Assembly: GCA_910592205.1 (NCBI GenBank)
Contig: CAJVPJ010000398.1
Location: forward strand, 1-26,327
Reading direction: 5' to 3'
DNA from: Paraglomus occultum
Taxonomy: Eukaryota; Glomeromycota; Glomeromycetes; Paraglomerales; Paraglomeraceae
DNA: 26,327 bases
The position numbers were made by a program, and so were the translations under genes. Below are positions 4,250 to 24,615 of this stretch, piece by piece (positions within the stretch are counted from its first letter, which is position 1; each line of letters starts with the position of its first letter). Under the pieces are notes generated by a model. It worked only from the letters and a program-made list of their open reading frames with translations, had not been told where the DNA came from and searched no databases.

Positions 4250-7200
4250 ATGGACAGGTATTTATGAGATAATTATCCAGCAGATACTGTCTACATTACA
4301 ATTTAAGCATTTTTGTTACAAAAATTTAACTTTCTATTCGATTAACAGCATCGAATTCGATTTGCACGGTTTGATTCTGGATAAGCTATCTAAAGTGTTG
4401 AGTTCACATCCAAATACATCAGACGAAGAAATAGATCACTTGATTGCAAGATGTCCTGTTCTGTCAGAATCTTCACTTGGACTTATGGTAGATGGGCGTT
4501 CATTGTATTTTGCGTCATTTCTATCATAGATCGATGGTACTCACAAAATCTCTTAATGTTTAATCATGTAGTTACAACCATATCAAGATGGCATAATTGC
4601 CCTATCGTCATTTGCTGCATCCACAAACAACAAGTCGCATGTTGATCGAATACTGACTCTCTTGTTAAAATATCTTCAAATTCTTCCACAATTCAAATTT
4701 GAAGAGATTCTGAAATGGAAAGGTAGACCAATTTTTGATCATTGATTCAAACTATATTTCTAGTAGTTACCCATAAACTCTTTTTGTTTAAATAGATCTG
4801 TGTCCAGCAGACGAACTTGCGGGAAGATTGATTGGAGAGCTGTTAAATGTGGCTCGGAATTTCCCCGACACGCGGGAAGAAATTGTCGGAGCAATTTTGA
4901 ATCTTACTGAACGTCTTGTTAATCTTTTGCAAAACGAAGATGGTAAACAGGTTATTGTTCCAGCATGCTACTTTCTAAGTTGTAACTTTTTATCTTATAT
5001 TACTTTTTCAACTCATACAGATGTTGCAAACTTGACGGTTACAGTTCTTCCTCTTATAAATGGAACATTAAGATCGCTACAAAGTTCGTCATTCGAATGG
5101 ACACTTGCTGACTTTGAAGCTGTGAACAATTTATCACTACCACTCCTCTCAAATGAACTTATACAGCATATCAGCGGAATAATAGAAAAAGTCATGAAAT
5201 CCAATGATGATAGCGATTACTATGCCAAGAAAGTATTATTTCGCTATTCTAATGCACCTATACCTCTTTCAAGCAATGGATTGGTACTTAATGTCTTACA
5301 GCTGATGCAAAATATGTTGGCCAGAATTTTACTCATAACAAGTAACGACGAAGTTGCAGTTATGGGGCCTGGTCAAATATGGAGTGCGTTGGTGAGCTCA
5401 GGAATGAATCTCAATTGGACTCTAGATGAAAAAACAAAAGACGTTCTTAGAGGAACATATGTTATGGCACTACAATATTATACAGAGTTGGAGAAGTTAA
5501 TGGCACAAGGGAAGGATTTTCCAACCGCGAAATATGCTATAGAAATAATGGCAGCAAGCTTAGTAAGTTTATTATATATGCTGTATCGACTGTTTGTATA
5601 GGGAGGTTAACGTTTCCGTCTCTTTTAGAAATTGGCAGCTGTCGCTGGCGTATGTCTGCATGAAATTGATTATGACTTAAACGCAAAAATATCTCGCACC
5701 TTATTTATTGCTCCACAAACACCAGACGTGAAAGTGCAGACGGCTGCCTTAGATGCTGCTGCATTGATATCGTTGAAGTAATTACTTTTGGTGTTTGTTA
5801 AGTTGTTTATCTATATCAAATCATGTGTGCTCACCGTTTCTGATTAATTAGTTTCCCGCTGAAACATGCTTCAACAATGATTCAGCTTATCAAGAAATTT
5901 CTCACTACCCCATCAACAATTTTTGAGTTGGCGACAACAGCTGCCGACGATCTTACGATTCAAAGATATGCGATCCGGAGACTCGCGGATTGCCTGAAAG
6001 TAAGTTTGATGAGAGAATCAGCACTTGTCATTTTCAGACTCAACAAAAATCATAAATTTGACTAGCAAATTATCATGGTCAATATTAAGCTTAGTTATCG
6101 TTATTTATATAGGCCACAAATGATGAAAATCAAATTGTATCTATGATATATGAATTACAAAATATGCTTGTGGCCAGGGGCTATGATCGCTCACCTTCGA
6201 GGAACGTTTCTGTTGATCATATTTCGGTGACATCAGGCACGGAAGAGCAAAAGCTTCAAGTCTGCGAAAACCTTGTTTATACTATTGCTGGTATTACTTG
6301 TGTATTGCAAATCGATAAGGTAAACATCGTATGTGTAATTCAATTTCGACGTTTTGCGCAACACAGATTTTACAATTCATTATGTTTTTAGATCACATCT
6401 CTTGCTGAGCCAATTTTACGACAACGGGTTCGCAACCATGCCCCTGCACTTGACGTCATTATTCTTGAAAATCTGGTGAATATTGCATTAATAGCACCGA
6501 GGAAAGTGTTCGAAGACATATTACAACATTTTTCAACAATTAGCATGCAATCACTCTCACCAAAAAACAAAATTATTACTACCGCTGTGAGTACGTTCGG
6601 CTGAATTATCTTGCTACCTGAACGAATTATCTAACTCAGGCGTATTATTCTTGACTTTTTCAAACAGGTCTTGAAATGTCAACACGAGCTGGCCAATAGA
6701 ATTAGTGCACGTCCAGAATTTTATGATTTTTATTTAACGAAGATATTGGAATTATTTGTCGAAAAAGGTGTAGTTATCCAAAAAACTGTGGCAGAACATG
6801 GAAGGGTCCAAGTGACATCGCTTGCAGCGGAATTGGGCATACTACTCCCCATACTCTCAACACTTTTGTCACATCGCGACTTTATAGCGCATTTGAATCC
6901 GTCAGAGGATCTTGTTAGTCTGTTTCGAAATGTTTGGTTCCATTGCGTTCTCTATGGCTTTGTATCCGAAGCTACATGGATGCGAGAATGGTGTGATTCA
7001 TTGGTTATCATTGCCCAAAAGACTCCCCCATTGGTGCAGGAGAGTGCAACGAATTATTTGGAATATGATTTAGAATACAATTCCGTATTAGTAAGGGGCT
7101 ACTCTGAGCAGGTAGACGATCGGTAGAAAGTTGTAACTTGAAAAATGCCGGTTTAATCCCAAACTCGACATTTGATCGTTTTTTAGGACTTGGTACATTT

Positions 7201-10200: not shown

Positions 10201-12389
10201 ATGACGAGATAGTATTTGACGATTTTGTTCTAGTATTTGTTATATTGGAAACCAGTGCCTCCGGTTACAGCAATTACATACTTTTCACCAAATTACAACA
10301 ATCATCCATTGATATTGCAATACGCAATGCGCTCGCTCGAATATCACCCGGTAGATGTGGTCTTTTTTTATATACCGCAGATAGTTCAAGCATTAAGAAG
10401 TGATACATATGGTAAGCGTGCAGAACGTTTATAGAAGGCAATAACGTAATTTAGTAAAGGATACTAATGCAAAACCTCCGTGTAGGATATGTCGAAAGAT
10501 TTATAATGGAAGCAGGCAAGATTTCTCAACTGTTTGCACATCAAATAATTTGGAATATGAAGGCCAATATGTTTAAAGATGAAGAATGCACAACAGTATG
10601 TATTTGTAAGAGGATTTCTGCTATATACGAAAGGTGTTAAAATCACTACTTAATTTTTTTTCCCCGTCAGCCCGACTCGCTTAAACCCACGCTGGATCGT
10701 ATTATTGCAAATATTGTGGAAACCTTGTCCGGAGAAGACAAAGACTTTTACGAAAGAGAATTCAAATTTTTTGAAGGTGTTACTTCGATTTCTGGAAAGT
10801 TGAAGCCATATATAGGCAAGAAACCTGAGGAGAAAAAGGCAAAGATAGACGAAGAAATGAAAAAGATTGTTGTAGATGTTGGTGTTTACCTTCCCAGTAA
10901 TCCGGAGGGGATCGTTGTTGATATTGACTACAAATCAGGAAAGCCTTTGCAAAGTCATGCAAAGGTGAGATATAACGGGCGGTAACTTATTGGGTGCACT
11001 TGTTTTGTCTTTTCTATGAAAAAAAGCTCATGAGTGTGATTCGAAAATTTCAGGCACCGTTTCTGGCAACCTTCAAGATAAGAAAAACTCTGCGTGAATC
11101 TGAAGGGGTCACAGAAGAGGTCACAGACGAGTTTAATAATTCGGATGAAAACGAACTCAAAACTGTTGATGTGTGGCAGTCTGCTATATTCAAAGTTGGA
11201 GATGACTGCCGTCAAGACGTGTTGGCTCTTCAGCTGATTGCTATATTTAAAAATATATTTACTAGCATTGGATTAGATTTATATCTTTATCCATATAAAG
11301 TTGTTGCAACGGCACCTGGAGTAAGTTAATTATGATGTATACGTCGAGTTTGGTTTCACTTAGTGATTGAGCTTTTTCTACTTTAAGTGTGGAGTCATTG
11401 ATGTTATACCAAAAGCATTGTCGAGAGCCCAAGTAGGGACGCAGAAGGTCAACGATTTGTATTCGTAGGTGCCCTTACTATTGTTGCCAGTATTTTAGTC
11501 GAGGAAGATGTTCTGACCTTGATCTTTGCACTTTGATTTAGATATTTTCTTACAAGATATGGTGGATTGGATTCATTGGAATTTCAAAAGGTACCTTTAC
11601 ATATCGTAGAATATCGATATCGTTAAAATATGAATACTAATTAATATCGTTTGTAAGGCCAGGAACTGTTTTATTCAGAGTGCAGCCGCGTACTCGGTTG
11701 TCTCGTATATTTTGCAGATATCGGATAGACACAATGGCAATATAATGTTAGATGATTATGGTCACATAATTCACATTGGTATGTTGATTAACCCTGCAAT
11801 CATGCAAACATACTGCTACATTAGCGCTAACGACCGTTCACACCTATTTACTTGTATAGATTTTGGATTTATTCTTGATATTTCGCCCGGTGGCATCAAA
11901 TTTGAGAGCTCGCCATTCAAACTTACAACAGAAATGATTCAAGTGATGGGAGGTAGTGCAGGAGTTCAACCATTCCAATGGTTCTCAGAGCTGTGTATCA
12001 AAGCATACCTGGCGTTAAGGTATGTGATTGATGGATGGGTTGTAACCCGTAAAAAGTTACGATTTTCACTGAACATTTTTCATTAGGCCATACGCTGAAC
12101 AGATAACGCAGTGTGTTGCGTTAATGCTTGGTTCGGGCCTTCCTTGTTTCAAGGGCGAGATGACTCTCAAGAGATTGCAACAAAGATTCCAGTTGGACAG
12201 GACAGAGCGCGCTGCCGCAGAATTTATGATGGAGAGGATATTCCAATCGTTCGAGAATAGACGAACTGTGTTCTATGACTACTTCCAGAAAGCAACAAAT
12301 GGTAAATTCATTGTGTATTGAGGGTTAATTATTAGTTCCAATGGGATACTAATATTCACGTCATCATTTCACTAGGCATTCCATTTTAA
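4250..12389 (+). CDS. STT4: Phosphatidylinositol 4-kinase, STT4/PI4KA type (type III alpha)
   Basis: Converts phosphatidylinositol to PI4P at the plasma membrane; in other fungi it works with Efr3/Ypp1-type scaffolds. My model has 32 exons: 4250-4257, 4349-4487, 4572-4722, 4796-4942, 5021-5562, 5629-5777, 5852-5999, 6113-6319, 6392-6586, 6668-7111, 7187-7408, 7513-7770, 7829-7996, 8079-8178, 8258-8389, 8455-8636, 8701-8900, 8969-9187, 9255-9404, 9474-9640, 9723-9889, 9958-10164, 10234-10411, 10486-10595, 10671-10964, 11054-11320, 11388-11464, 11542-11590, 11658-11778, 11860-12019, 12087-12301, 12376-12389. Together they give 1928 aa (yeast Stt4 is about 1900). Residues 1 to about 1360 are helical, without catalytic motifs, and include the family signature ESATNYLEYDLEYNSVL. 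The PIK helical domain follows (about 1370-1550), then YLPSNPEG (1603-1610), FKVGDDCRQD (1674-1683), catalytic DRHNGN (1782-1787) and DFG (1800-1802). The protein ends ATNGIPF, as in the family. The start rests on an 8-nt first exon giving MDSIEFDLHG. Confidence 0.96.
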
Positions 12390-15721: not shown

Positions 15722-16644
15722 ATGCAAGATAATACAAGCTTTGTTGGAGAGAAGCGTTTGACTGCTCATGCCATCACGCAGAAGAAACGTATGGAGGAAT
15801 GTAGTCACTCGAGAGACGAAAGAGTAGTATTGAATGTTGGCGGTATAAAGGCATGCATTACTTTTTTTGCCTTTTGATAAACAGCTTAGAGTTCAAGGAA
15901 GCCCATGCCATGTACCCTCTTGACACTCATATCTCTCTGTTCTTAATGACTTCTATGCAGTACGAAACATACAGGTCGACACTGATAGCATATCCAGATA
16001 CCCTTCTCGGTACAATGTTCCAGGATCGCAACAATAACTTATTACGACCCACAAACGACAACGAATACTTTTTTGACCGAGATGGTCATACATTCCGGTA
16101 TATCATGCAATATTATCGTACTGGTGAAATTGCTTGGCCCAGACGTACTAAATTTTCTGACCCCTGGTTTCAAGATATCAGTGGCACAGAGCTAAAGCGT
16201 GAGCTTGATTATTTTCAGATACCGACGGCAGGTATAGGATTGCTTCTTGATGAGGATGAGCCATCTTTTGAAAGAGCTGCCGCCACACGAGTTGATGACT
16301 TTATGAATGCGTTGAAAGAAGCTCTTTTTGAAACAATAACTAATTTCAAGACAAAAGTCGGAATAACGTTTAACTGGGATCGATCAGAGCCTACTGTGAA
16401 TCCACGGATCGAGAGAGTCATCAAAATAGTCGGGCCGTTTGGTACAATTGGTTATCACATATTATATATGTTTGGCATGGAGATCGAAAAGTATCTGCAG
16501 ACTTTATTTCCACAACTTGAAGTGCGAATTGATAAATTCTTCACGGACACACCAAGAGCGTATGTTAACGTCTATATGTATTCCAATAATGCTCTAGATC
16601 GGAATAAGATTCTCAGTTATTCTTGTCTTGCTGAACGCGAATAG
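15722..16644 (+). CDS. BTB/POZ (T1, KCTD-like) domain protein
   Basis: A tetramerisation-type BTB_2 domain protein. Relatives act as cullin-3 adaptors or assembly domains; the partner here is unknown. Two exons, 15722-15850 and 15961-16644, give 270 aa. Residues 33-131 carry the domain: RVVLNVGGIKYETYRSTL, then LLGTMFQDR, then FFDRDGHTFRYIMQYYRTG and ELDYFQIP. The remaining 139 residues contain no motif I recognise. The exon join falls inside the most conserved motif (VGGIK/YETYRS), which fixes the intron to 15851-15960 with a GC donor (AAG before GCATGC) and TGCAG acceptor. A GT alternative one codon upstream breaks the frame. The start is the most upstream in-frame ATG; an internal ATG at 15806 is also possible. 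The C-terminus could be altered by an unseen 3' intron. Confidence 0.88.
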
Positions 16645-16980
16645 GGTGTTAGTATTAATCTAGGTGTGCATATAATTGGTGTGATTATCTGACACTGTTA
16701 TTTTTCTTCTTTTATATATAGGTAGACATTCAAGTTAATGTATGTAAATTCAAATTCATAATTTTACGTTCCCCCATGTATATTACCAAAAAATCTGATC
16801 TTAGAATAGAAATTTTGATTTTTTAATAGAGCTTATTCTTGACTTTTGAAAAAATACCATAGTTCTTTACTGGTGCATCCAGCAATAAAAATCGATTATC
16901 GCATCGTATCTCGGTTTGGATTACCTTTGTTTGTTGATGAAAAGCCTTTATCTTGTCTAACAATCTAATTCAACAGCAGC
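16645..16980. other. Intergenic region between the BTB gene and TPT1
   Basis: AT-rich, with no coding signal. It holds the BTB gene's 3' UTR, with a candidate AATAAA at 16884-16889, and the TPT1 promoter. The two genes are in tandem on the plus strand. Confidence 0.5.
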
Positions 16981-18105
16981 ATGCAATTCCATAAGATGAT
17001 TAGTGAGATCTCAGGGCTTAGCACGGTTTATTTGGCCAGAACCGCTCTACACCAGATTGTGCAACCAATATTCATGTCTACGTTACCGCCAACGCAGCGT
17101 CAGAGAAGAAGTCGTTCGAACAACGATGACTCAACAGTTCGTCTCTCTAAAGCATTGTCGTATGTTCTAAGGCATGGTGCTGCGAAAGAAGGAATATCTA
17201 TGCGCACTGATGGCTATGTACGCTTGAATGAATTGGTAGGTTATCAAAGTATCGTTAATTGTTGCCACAAGATCACCACTAAGTTGGTTAAAAAACACAG
17301 TTGAGTTTACCCCGTTTTAAAACGGCTTCGTTTGAAGAAATTGAGACGATTGTGAAGACTAATGACAAGCAGAGGTTTTCGCTTATTAATGAGGTCGACG
17401 AGACAACAGGAGTTGCTACATGGTGGATAAGAGCAAATCAGGGACACACGATGAACGTATGCGAACGCTTTCCTCTAGATCAGCTGTATTGAAAGTAAAG
17501 TCAGTTCTAACGAACATTGAATACTCAAGGTCGAGGATTTGAAGCTTGAAGCAATTACGGATCCTGCACAAATTCCTATTGTCGTCCATGGCACTTATTT
17601 GAAGAACTGGCAAAACATAGGTGGTAGCAATTGTTTGCCCTGACATAAAGAAAATGGCTATCATTATTAAACTTGTTCCATAATAGCATCGCAGGGACTT
17701 TCAAAGATGCGCCGCAATCACATTCACTTTGCCGTGGGTTTATATGGAGAATCCGGAGTTATAAGTGGTAATACATCAAACTCATAAAGTTCTCTATGTC
17801 TCCAGTTGACGAACAATAACTTGGTTTTGGTACAATTTCAAAATAGGGATGCGAGCCGACTGCGATCTATTTATTTACATGAACGTACAAAAGGCTATTG
17901 CAGGTTTGGCAATTGTTATTATTCTCATAATTTGTCTTGTTATGGCATACTCTCATGAATCAATGTTTAAACAGATGGCATAGAAATCTACAGATCTGAG
18001 AATAATGTCATTCTCACGCCTGGCAAAGCTGGAATCTTGTCCTCGGAATATTTTCTAAAAGTCGTCGATAGATCGGGTAACGTTTTACTTTCAAATGAAA
18101 AGTAA
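16981..18105 (+). CDS. TPT1: tRNA 2'-phosphotransferase (Tpt1/KptA)
   Basis: Removes the 2'-phosphate left at the splice junction by fungal tRNA ligation, transferring it to NAD+. Six exons: 16981-17235, 17301-17456, 17530-17620, 17687-17767, 17847-17903, 17975-18105, giving 256 aa. Starting at Met32 (MSTLPPTQRQ) would give 225 aa, close to yeast Tpt1 (230), so the first 31 residues are uncertain. Motifs in order: LSKALSYVLRHGA with the catalytic Arg-His pair (64-65), TNDKQRFSL, IRANQGHT (Arg129), VVHGTYLKNW (the HGT motif), RRNHIHFA, and the C-terminal EIYRSENNVILTPG with SEYFLKVVDR. All expected active-site motifs are present. Intron 5 uses an unusual GTTTGG donor whose position is fixed by conserved sequence on both sides. 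The basic QRRSRS stretch precedes the domain. An AATAAA lies 40 nt past the stop. Confidence 0.95.
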
Positions 18106-21847: not shown

Positions 21848-24615
21848 ATGTCGTATACAAGAAGTACGGTCAATTATCTGATTATAATTACGCGCGATCC
21901 ACATAAACCGCGAATTAATCCATCTTCTTGTTATAGAAAATATTTTGGCTTTTACTCCAGCTACTACTCGTGGCCAGCCAGTTCAACTGGGAACAGACTC
22001 TAAGGGAGAAAACCTCCTCTATACAAATGGAAAGACTGTAATTATTAGAAGCTTGGCGGTAAGTTTTTGGTTTCTGCTGCGAACAGGCATTCATGAAAAA
22101 AGAAAAATACAATTGATAAATCAAATTGTTGAATTCTATTTAGCATCCTGAAAATTCAAAAGAATATACGCAACACTCGGCTAATGCGACCGTTGCGAAA
22201 TATGCCCCTAGCGGATACTACATTGCCTCTGGCGGTTAGTAGAGGAACTTGACCGTAGTGATGGAATCGATTGTCCGCTGTCTTTTTATTAAGCAATTGA
22301 CATTTAATTTTTTTTTCAGATGTTAATGGAACGGTTAGAATTTGGGATACAGTTGGAGAAGAACAGATTCTCAAAACTGAAGTGAAAGTTATTTCTGGAA
22401 AGATTACTGACATTGCCTGGGATTCGGAAAGTAAGCGAATCATTGCTGTCGGAGATGGAAGAGAAAAGTATGTTATATTACATGGATGTGCTATTTACTT
22501 GAACCAATGCGTTGATCACTTTATAAAAAATCCTACAGATATGGCCATGCCTTTCTCTTTGACTCTGGATCGTCTGTTGGAGAGATTGCTGGTCATCATA
22601 AGGTTATAAACAGCGTTAGTATTCGTCAGCAACGTCCGTTTCGTGCGGCCACGGCTTCGGATGATTTTAGCGTAGTATTTTATCACGGAGTTCCGTACAA
22701 GTACAACAAAGCGATAAAAGATCATACCGGATTTGTTCAAGGCGTGAGTTTCTCTCCTGATGGAGAGAAGTTTGTCAGCGTCGGTTCTGACAAAAAGGTA
22801 ACTTGATTGGCATATGCAAAATTTTTTCCGTCATAATTTACATGTCGTAAGAATGATTGAATTTGTTTGTTTCTGTTTTAGGTTTTCCTCTATGATGGAA
22901 AGACAGGTGATAAGCTATCGGAACTGTCAGCTGCCGCAGGCAGCGATACTCACACCGGTAGTGTCTATGCAGTTTCTTGGTCTCCAGACAGCAAAAAGAT
23001 TCTAACATCTTCTGGAGATAAAACTGCAAAAATTTGGGACGTGGAAGCTCAAAAAATTGTGCGGTATGCTTGTTCGTCTCCATTAGATTCACGTAATACT
23101 CCCTCTCTGTTCTGTTAATTAAAAACCTTGTTTGATATCCACAGCACGTTTGAATTTTCCAATAATGTTGATGACCAGCAAGTTGGAAATGTTTGGCGAG
23201 GCAGTTATCTCATCAGTCTTTCGTTATCCGGAAATATCAATTACCTGGACGAGGCTTCGCCAAAGCCAGTGAGAATAGTCAAGGTTTGTATACGCTTGTC
23301 CTACAATCGAAAATACATTGCGCTCGTGGACATAACACGTTGTCTTTGTGATTGTATCAGGGTCACCAAAAAGCCATCACGGCGCTTACAAAAACCGACG
23401 AAAAGACATTGTTTACCGGAAGTTATGATGGACGAATTTATATCCTTTAAACGGGCTTTGTATCGTGGCAGTGACAGAGTAATACTCTCGCATTTCCTTG
23501 ACAAATTACTTACACTCTTGGAATTTAGATGAAGGTCATGCAACAGAATTAGACGGGCAAGGCCATTCCAATCAAGTAACTCAGCTCGTTAATCATAAAA
23601 ACGCAATCTATTCCGTTGGTATGGATGACAGTTTAAGGGAAATTGACCCTGACAACAAATCATTTAGGTATGTGAGAGATCATGTCATTTAAACAAGTAC
23701 AGAATATTTGTTCAAAGAGAGCTTTCTTGCTGATACACGTACTCTTCTGAACATGTGCAGCGCGTTAGTTCTTCCAACGAAACACATGCCAAAGGGATTA
23801 GGCGTTGGCAGCAGTGGCGTGAGCGTAATTGGTACTGTAGAGAGTTTACTTCTTATAAAGGATAAGAAAGAAGTTTTTAACACATCTGTTCAGTCTCCAC
23901 CGGGTGCTGTTGCGATCAAAGCCGACGAAACTGAAGTCGCTGTTGGGGGCGAGGTAATTGAGATATACTTTTGCTCTCGTGACTATGAACAGCTCACCAA
24001 TTTTATCTCTAATATTCATGCTTTAAGGATAGTAAAATTCGCTTGTATAGTCTCAAGGATGACCGTCTCACCGAAACAAAGCAACTCGATGCAAATCGTG
24101 GAGCTATTACGGCATTGTCATATTCTCCAGATGGCTCTCTATTGGCTGCTGGCGACGCTCAAGGCAAGATAATGGTATATGATACGGTAACAGGCTCTGT
24201 GAGTATAAGAAAGAACTAATGTATACCAACCATACTTGTGGTGATTCGCGTGAAAATGTCTACTCAACACAAAACTTTGAATTTAGGTAAAACTCTCCCA
24301 ATGGGTCTTCCACACGGCGCGTATCAATTCCATTGCATGGAGCTCTGATGGTAAACATGCTGTCAGTGGGTCTTTGGATACTAACATTTACATATGGTCT
24401 ACAGAAAAACCTATGAAAAAGATACAAATAAAAGGTACGGTATCAACTGTATTTAATATCGTTTGCAAACAAAGTGATGAACTTTGACCATTTTGATGAT
24501 ACAAATAGGCGCTCATCAAGTTGGGGTGACTGGAGTCATATTTATGAATGACAATACCGTCGCGTCTGTTGGACAGGATGCATGCGTCAAAATCTGGAAT
24601 ATTCAGCATCACTGA
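21848..24615 (+). CDS. AIP1: Actin-interacting protein 1 (AIP1/WDR1), WD40 repeats
   Basis: WD-repeat protein that works with cofilin to disassemble actin filaments in cortical patches. Thirteen exons: 21848-21863, 21937-22058, 22144-22234, 22320-22467, 22539-22797, 22882-23063, 23145-23283, 23361-23439, 23514-23667, 23761-23953, 24028-24198, 24287-24434, 24509-24615, giving 602 aa (human WDR1 606, yeast Aip1 615). The N-terminus comes from a 16-nt exon (MSYTRK) followed by [12 protein letters not shown] and [16 protein letters not shown] strands include [113 protein letters not shown] and [12 protein letters not shown], consistent with the family's two tandem propellers. Intron 8 (23440-23513) is AT-AC and interrupts the Tyr codon of DGRIYSW; no GT-AG choice keeps the frame there. 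All other introns are GT-AG, 71-93 nt. Confidence 0.96.
23440..23513 (+). other. U12-type (minor spliceosome) AT-AC intron in AIP1
   Basis: The 74-nt intron begins ATATCCTTT, the exact U12 5' splice-site consensus, and ends in AC. A perfect U12 branch-site match, TTCCTTGAC, lies at 23494-23502. The presumed branch adenosine (23501) is 12 nt from the 3' end of the intron, inside the narrow range known for U12 introns. Splicing joins ...GRI + Y + SWNLDEG in frame. Reading through hits a TAA 11 nt into the exon extension. Confidence 0.93.

Follow-up and report, generated by a model that had tools for sequence, protein, structure and literature searches.

In the case of Rhizophagus irregularis, the nearest described system, 205 minor introns have been reported along with the full set of four minor snRNAs (Larue and Roy 2023, PMC10639083), and the same source counts 249 minor introns in Basidiobolus meristosporus. 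U12 introns, together with snRNAs, have also been described for Rhizopus oryzae and Phycomyces blakesleeanus (Bartschat and Samuelsson 2010, PMC2846911), and in human both WDR1 and STX10 are tabulated as U12-intron genes (2025 preprint, PMC12637451). Introns of the U12-type AT-AC kind are defined by a donor of consensus ATATCCTT and a branch site TCCTTAAC (PMC2831892), with an optimum of 11-13 nt between the branch and the 3' end (PMC6717393). As far as its main text goes, PMC10639083 makes no mention of Paraglomus, AIP1 or WDR1. In the literature on Paraglomus introns and on minor introns in mycorrhizal fungi we found no further paper that evidently concerns the AIP1 locus; PMC11039992 matched via WDR11 only and was set aside.

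In this study, we describe an intron of the AIP1 (WDR1) gene of Paraglomus occultum, an arbuscular mycorrhizal fungus of the Glomeromycota. With high confidence it is a true spliceosomal intron of the U12-type AT-AC class, removed by a minor spliceosome still encoded in this genome. It is a well-supported case of a kind already published for Rhizophagus and Basidiobolus.

The AIP1 gene and its eighth intron

The genome searched comprises 32.3 Mb in 1408 contigs, one of which, C398, is the window (the whole stretch of 26,327 nucleotides that was analysed). Apart from AIP1, the window holds parts of a PI4-kinase (STT4-like) gene at 6635-7123 and about 11745-12000, with PI4K_N and PI3_PI4_kinase matches, a BTB-domain frame at 15805-16641, and a frame at 16969-17301 whose match covers the first quarter of the Tpt1/KptA (RNA 2'-phosphotransferase) profile. 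The features of the AIP1 locus are as follows.

21848-24615, forward strand: AIP1/WDR1 gene, 13 exons, 602 aa, stop TGA at 24613-24615
21848-21863, 21937-22058, 22144-22234 and 22320-22467, forward strand: exons 1-4
22539-22797, 22882-23063 and 23145-23283, forward strand: exons 5-7
23361-23439, forward strand: exon 8, 3' end reading ...GSYDGRI + T
23440-23513, forward strand: predicted U12-type AT-AC intron, AIP1 intron 8, 74 nt, phase 1
23440-23448, forward strand: U12-type 5' splice site ATATCCTTT, also seen as Y-I-L in public models P0004 and P0006
23494-23502, forward strand: branch site TTCCTTGAC, branch A at 23501
23512-23513, forward strand: 3' splice site AC, 11 nt past the branch motif
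23514-23667, forward strand: exon 9, opening AC followed by TCT TGG, (..Y)SWNLDEGH
23761-23953, 24028-24198, 24287-24434 and 24509-24615, forward strand: exons 10-13
23422-23528, forward strand: false GT-AG intron implied by public protein P0001, 12 largely conserved residues reduced to 1

The 13 joined exons give 602 aa without an internal stop, and the introns between them are GT-AG in 11 cases and AT-AC in one, 23440-23513. The model matches the solved WDR1 chain 9qfq_P over residues 1-600 (E 1.3e-158) and two more solved actin-interacting protein 1 sequences (1nr0 and 1pgu) over almost its own full length, and it is 98% identical to the public P. occultum protein, the query in that comparison having a slightly wrong first exon.

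The letters of the junction read ...GACGAATTT / ATATCCTTTAA (from 23440) ... TTCCTTGAC AAATTACTTAC (end 23513) / ACTCTTGG, so that the intron closes with ...TTAC at 23513. The donor ATATCCTTT agrees with the 5' splice site consensus ATATCCTT, and TTCCTTGAC agrees with a TCCTTRAC-like motif near the 3' end, a motif in which R/Y degeneracy is allowed; the last intron base follows branch A 23501 at a distance of 12 nt. The donor, this branch distance and the terminal AC had been placed at 23440..23513 by a preliminary description of this DNA, and all of them can be read directly. The same description had claimed that the join restores DGRIYSW, with a phase-1 intron at codon 346. The exon 8/9 join indeed reads DGRIYSWNLD, restoring the conserved frame, the alignment to 9qfq_P is ungapped at 23439/23514, and the 13-exon model places the intron in phase 1 after residue 345, splitting codon 346. 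On scanning both strands of the window, 23440-23513 was the sole site combining a U12-like donor with a CCTTRA branch motif; the scan also returned two weaker donor/branch pairs.

Candidates for the minor spliceosome and for further U12-type introns

The snRNA candidates were sought with Rfam models. U11 is over threshold, at 78.2 bits against a cut-off of 39. The U12 candidate (45 bits, E 1.5e-6) and the U4atac candidate (50.3 bits, E 1.7e-6) both lie under the gathering cut-off of 53, each being the single match at E <= 0.001, and each carries an expected pairing or Sm-like segment, with the branch-pairing region GAGUAAGGA in the former and CAAUUUUUGGAAA in the latter.

L001 1501-1665: U12 snRNA candidate

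Among the proteins, U11-59K (PDCD7) reaches 36.5 bits against a cut-off of 27 in a partial match (profile 254-306 of 306) with one internal stop, which we take for an intron read through. The U11-48K CHHC zinc finger scores 26.4 bits against 21.1, with a 25-residue model that also matches 2 of 14 control genomes, one of them above the cut-off. The assembled U11-48K protein clears the Pfam cut-off and has 33 homologues at E <= 0.001, including vertebrate proteins named U11/U12 48 kDa; its counterpart in Paraglomus brasilianum is 91% identical. A TATCCT scan of the 48K and 59K loci returned no tandem donors. CENATAC/CCDC84 is an AT-AC factor; it gave no match in the genome, in a search that matched no control genome either.

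U6atac gave no credible match in five genome searches and a rescan of four loci, the best score of 21 bits staying below the cut-off of 33. The Rfam model returned nothing credible at E <= 0.001, and at E <= 10 it gave 15 matches, yet 11 of the 14 prokaryote controls match at that level too. Judged from the matched strings only, a core pattern with three mismatches occurred 38 times against 52 for the reversed control, and of two patterns built from the U4atac candidate the first gave none and the second 25 against 20 control matches. Four of the 15 loci were rescanned, and the best of them, C552:3893-4010, was rejected because it looks like coding sequence on visual inspection. The contigs searched shrink from 146,025 bases (C1) to 10,064 (C1399 of 1408), and the absence of U6atac from them counts weakly because pieces below about 10 kb were probably not covered. 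The preliminary description had supposed a genome with all four minor snRNAs and the minor-spliceosome proteins; this part holds as candidates for U11, U12, U4atac, 59K and 48K, and falls short at U6atac, which was not found in the contigs searched. The covariance-model search that it had proposed ended with single matches under the cut-off for U12 and U4atac and with no credible match for U6atac.

Genome-wide, the pattern TATCCTTN{30,60}TCCTTRAC has 30 matches against 5 for its reversed form, and the true number of U12 introns is probably higher, since the pattern is strict. For 16 of these 30, an alignment to a homologous protein spans the spliced junction; 12 of the 16 introns start with AT and 4 with GT. 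The supporting matches are to Pfam families for STX6, Pkinase, ChAPs, VPS11, FH3, DHHC, Adaptin, Siva, Sec39, Exo84 and Brr6, those to Adaptin and Brr6 being under the curated cut-off (by locus, L026 lies under the Pfam cut-off at 24.7 against 25 and L042 at 23.9 against 37), and to PDB sequences for DNA polymerase delta, histidine protein methyltransferase 1, cyclin L, NASP and AIP1 itself. Two of these loci are given here.

L017 1500-1566: AT-AC intron in P. occultum STX6 (syntaxin 6), exon A followed by ATATCCTTT...AC
L020 (G000:C18:67042-67101): AT-AC intron in the gene of the DNA polymerase delta catalytic subunit, junction within the solved Pol delta alignment

Acceptors were picked by reading frame, those of L020, L029 and L042 being set after the protein had been recognised, and therefore the frame alone is not independent evidence. 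The AC selected for L029 is 30 nt past the branch motif and that for L042 is 27 nt past it, and in L022 there is a one-residue gap a few residues upstream of the junction. The 14 matches without support are L018, L019, L023, L024, L027, L031-L035, L039, L040, L043 and L046. Of these 14, the family searches covered L018, L023, L027, L039, L040 and L043. L027, L039, L040 and L043 had no Pfam match, and L023 had Pfam matches below the cut-offs as well as WD-repeat matches lying mainly downstream. Against PDB sequences, L027 and L039 gave weak matches confined to the upstream side of the junction, L018 gave matches on the downstream side alone, and L040 gave none.

The U12 candidate departs from the Rfam consensus in the branch-pairing region, reading GAGUAAGGAUAAUA where the consensus has GAGUaAGGAAAAuAA, also written as GUAAGGAUAA against GUAAGGAAAA, with U in place of A just after GUAAGGA. 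By the known pairing, the changed base presumably lies opposite the branch motif's first nucleotide, a position at which T dominates elsewhere. In the supported introns this base is A in 9, T in 4, C in 2 and G in 1 of 16 (hand tally); among all pattern matches the counts are A 14, T 10, C 4 and G 2 of 30, and among the 14 unsupported ones A 5, T 6, C 2 and G 1. With a binomial expectation of A = 0.31, the excess of A has P 0.052 (14/30) and 0.032 (9/16), and P 0.108 (7/14) once L029 and L042, with their distant branch motif, are left out. The base preceding TCCTTRAC elsewhere in the loci examined is A in 6, C in 6, T in 4 and G in 2 of 18, and in the AIP1 intron it is T. It is conceivable, at a fairly low probability, that U12 and the branch sites of Paraglomus have shifted together by one base pair (ATCCTTRAC over TTCCTTRAC) in a genome-wide compensatory flip, which we offer as a lead only.

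Public protein models at the AIP1 and STX6 junctions

The AIP1 comparison used columns G339-W348 of the model against the best 120 of 3319 homologues, of which 16 are named Glomeromycota and the remaining 104, among them rows that lack a taxon name, were treated as others. Among these best 120 of 3319, indels fall within the columns in 14 of the 16 Glomeromycota models versus 3 of the 104 others (Fisher P 1e-13); that is, 13 more of the listed Glomeromycota models besides P0001 are broken at the 23440-23513 junction. At 10 other AIP1 junctions (introns 2-7 and 9-12, intron 1 being left out) the same 16 models show any indel in 0-4 cases and two or more indel columns in 0-2. The models of Cetraspora (P0004) and Geosiphon (P0006) run on as GRIY-IL, the reading that T followed by ATATCCTT gives in translation. 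In the Geosiphon model 27 additional in-frame residues (81 nt), opening I-L, directly follow GRIY, an insertion whose letters we read as a probable unspliced intron. The models of Gigaspora rosea (P0002) and Rhizophagus irregularis (P0008) are clean at the junction, which speaks indirectly for splicing of the transcript there. The AIP1 AT-AC intron is probably common to Glomeromycota, because the listed models of most genera break there and two of them read through the ATATCCTT donor.

If the public annotation of P. occultum were correct, a major-type GT-AG intron at 23422-23528 (GTTATG...TTTAG) would be removed instead, leaving AIP1 without the strand. This splice keeps the frame. In fact 26 GT-AG or GC-AG pairs at the junction do so, and the preliminary claim that none does was wrong; the longest of their products, 591 aa, comes from 23422-23528, the junction implied by P0001. 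However, it swaps SYDGRIYSWNLD for one residue, and in that stretch the residues S, Y, D, G, R and W are each conserved in 95-104 of the other homologues, 115 of which (540-700 aa) entered the count; moreover, an exact U12 donor and branch site sit inside the segment it would remove. We regard the annotated intron as very unlikely: P0001 is short by 12 residues because the AT-AC intron has been replaced by a false GT-AG one.

It could also be argued that 23440-23513 is removed by the major (U2) spliceosome, given that terminal dinucleotides alone do not settle the spliceosome type and that several AT-AC introns go via U2 (PMC6717393). Against this stand the exact U12 consensus of the donor at 23440, the branch motif 11 nt from the intron end and a genome with U11, U12, U4atac, 48K and 59K candidates, and we hold removal by U2 to be even less probable than the annotated intron. 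A sequencing error or a decayed AIP1 copy has no point in its favour and a negligible probability, as the 13 exons are open over 602 aa, the product is 98% identical to the public protein, and many other species have public models that break at this junction too. The U12-type AT-AC reading of 23440-23513, by comparison, has good support from the sequence, from homologous proteins and from elsewhere in the genome. Splicing itself we infer from the sequence, frame and homology observed here, together with the machinery candidates and the other U12 introns. By the known mechanism, U11 would pair with the donor ATATCCTTT and U12 with TTCCTTGAC, leaving branch A 23501 bulged; U6atac would then take the place of U11, and the joining of the flanking exons would restore the WD strand.

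In the case of STX6, the junction at the L017 intron, which falls at LEETI|S, carries an indel in 9 of 12 Glomeromycota models, and Rhizophagus clarus (P0156, outside the 9) and Geosiphon (P0157) read ETI-NIL, which is the translated donor. Four other STX6 junctions show any indel in 4, 8, 1 and 2 of the 12, and at least two indel columns in 2, 5, 1 and 2. The pattern resembles that of AIP1 but is noisier, one control junction being often gapped (8/12 for any indel). Among 26 public STX6 homologues, models below 0.55 of the length being excluded, none is near-identical to the P. occultum protein, the best reaching 60%, and a full-length public P. occultum STX6 model seems to be missing. Many of the broken AIP1 and STX6 models share the name style NNN_t:CDS and may stem from one annotation effort rather than from independent failures; differently named are the models of Geosiphon, of Glomus cerebriforme for AIP1 and of Rhizophagus clarus for STX6.

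Relation to known systems

Paraglomus branches early within Glomeromycota, and the present results extend the documented minor spliceosome to it. At two loci, AT-AC introns appear to break public Glomeromycota gene models at predictable places, so that ancient introns are traceable even from protein databases. The AIP1 and STX6 introns are candidates for predating the split between animals and fungi, because WDR1 and STX10 both appear among the U12-intron genes tabulated for human (PMC12637451); WDR1 is the same gene as AIP1 and STX10 belongs to the syntaxin 6/10 family, a likeness at the level of the gene.

About a quarter of human minor introns are AT-AC, whereas 12 of the 16 supported introns of P. 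occultum are (PMC10639083 for human); we claim no AT-AC excess, since the pattern used in the search is biased towards conserved donors. As early-diverging fungi, Rhizopus oryzae and Phycomyces blakesleeanus are comparable to P. occultum, with few U12 introns reported (about 4 and about 20, respectively, per PMC10639083). All four minor snRNAs are present in Rhizophagus irregularis, whereas in P. occultum U6atac was not recovered in the contigs searched. With this difference, Rhizophagus irregularis is the system that P. occultum resembles in phylum, in the kind of intron and in the presence of minor snRNAs and proteins (PMC10639083).
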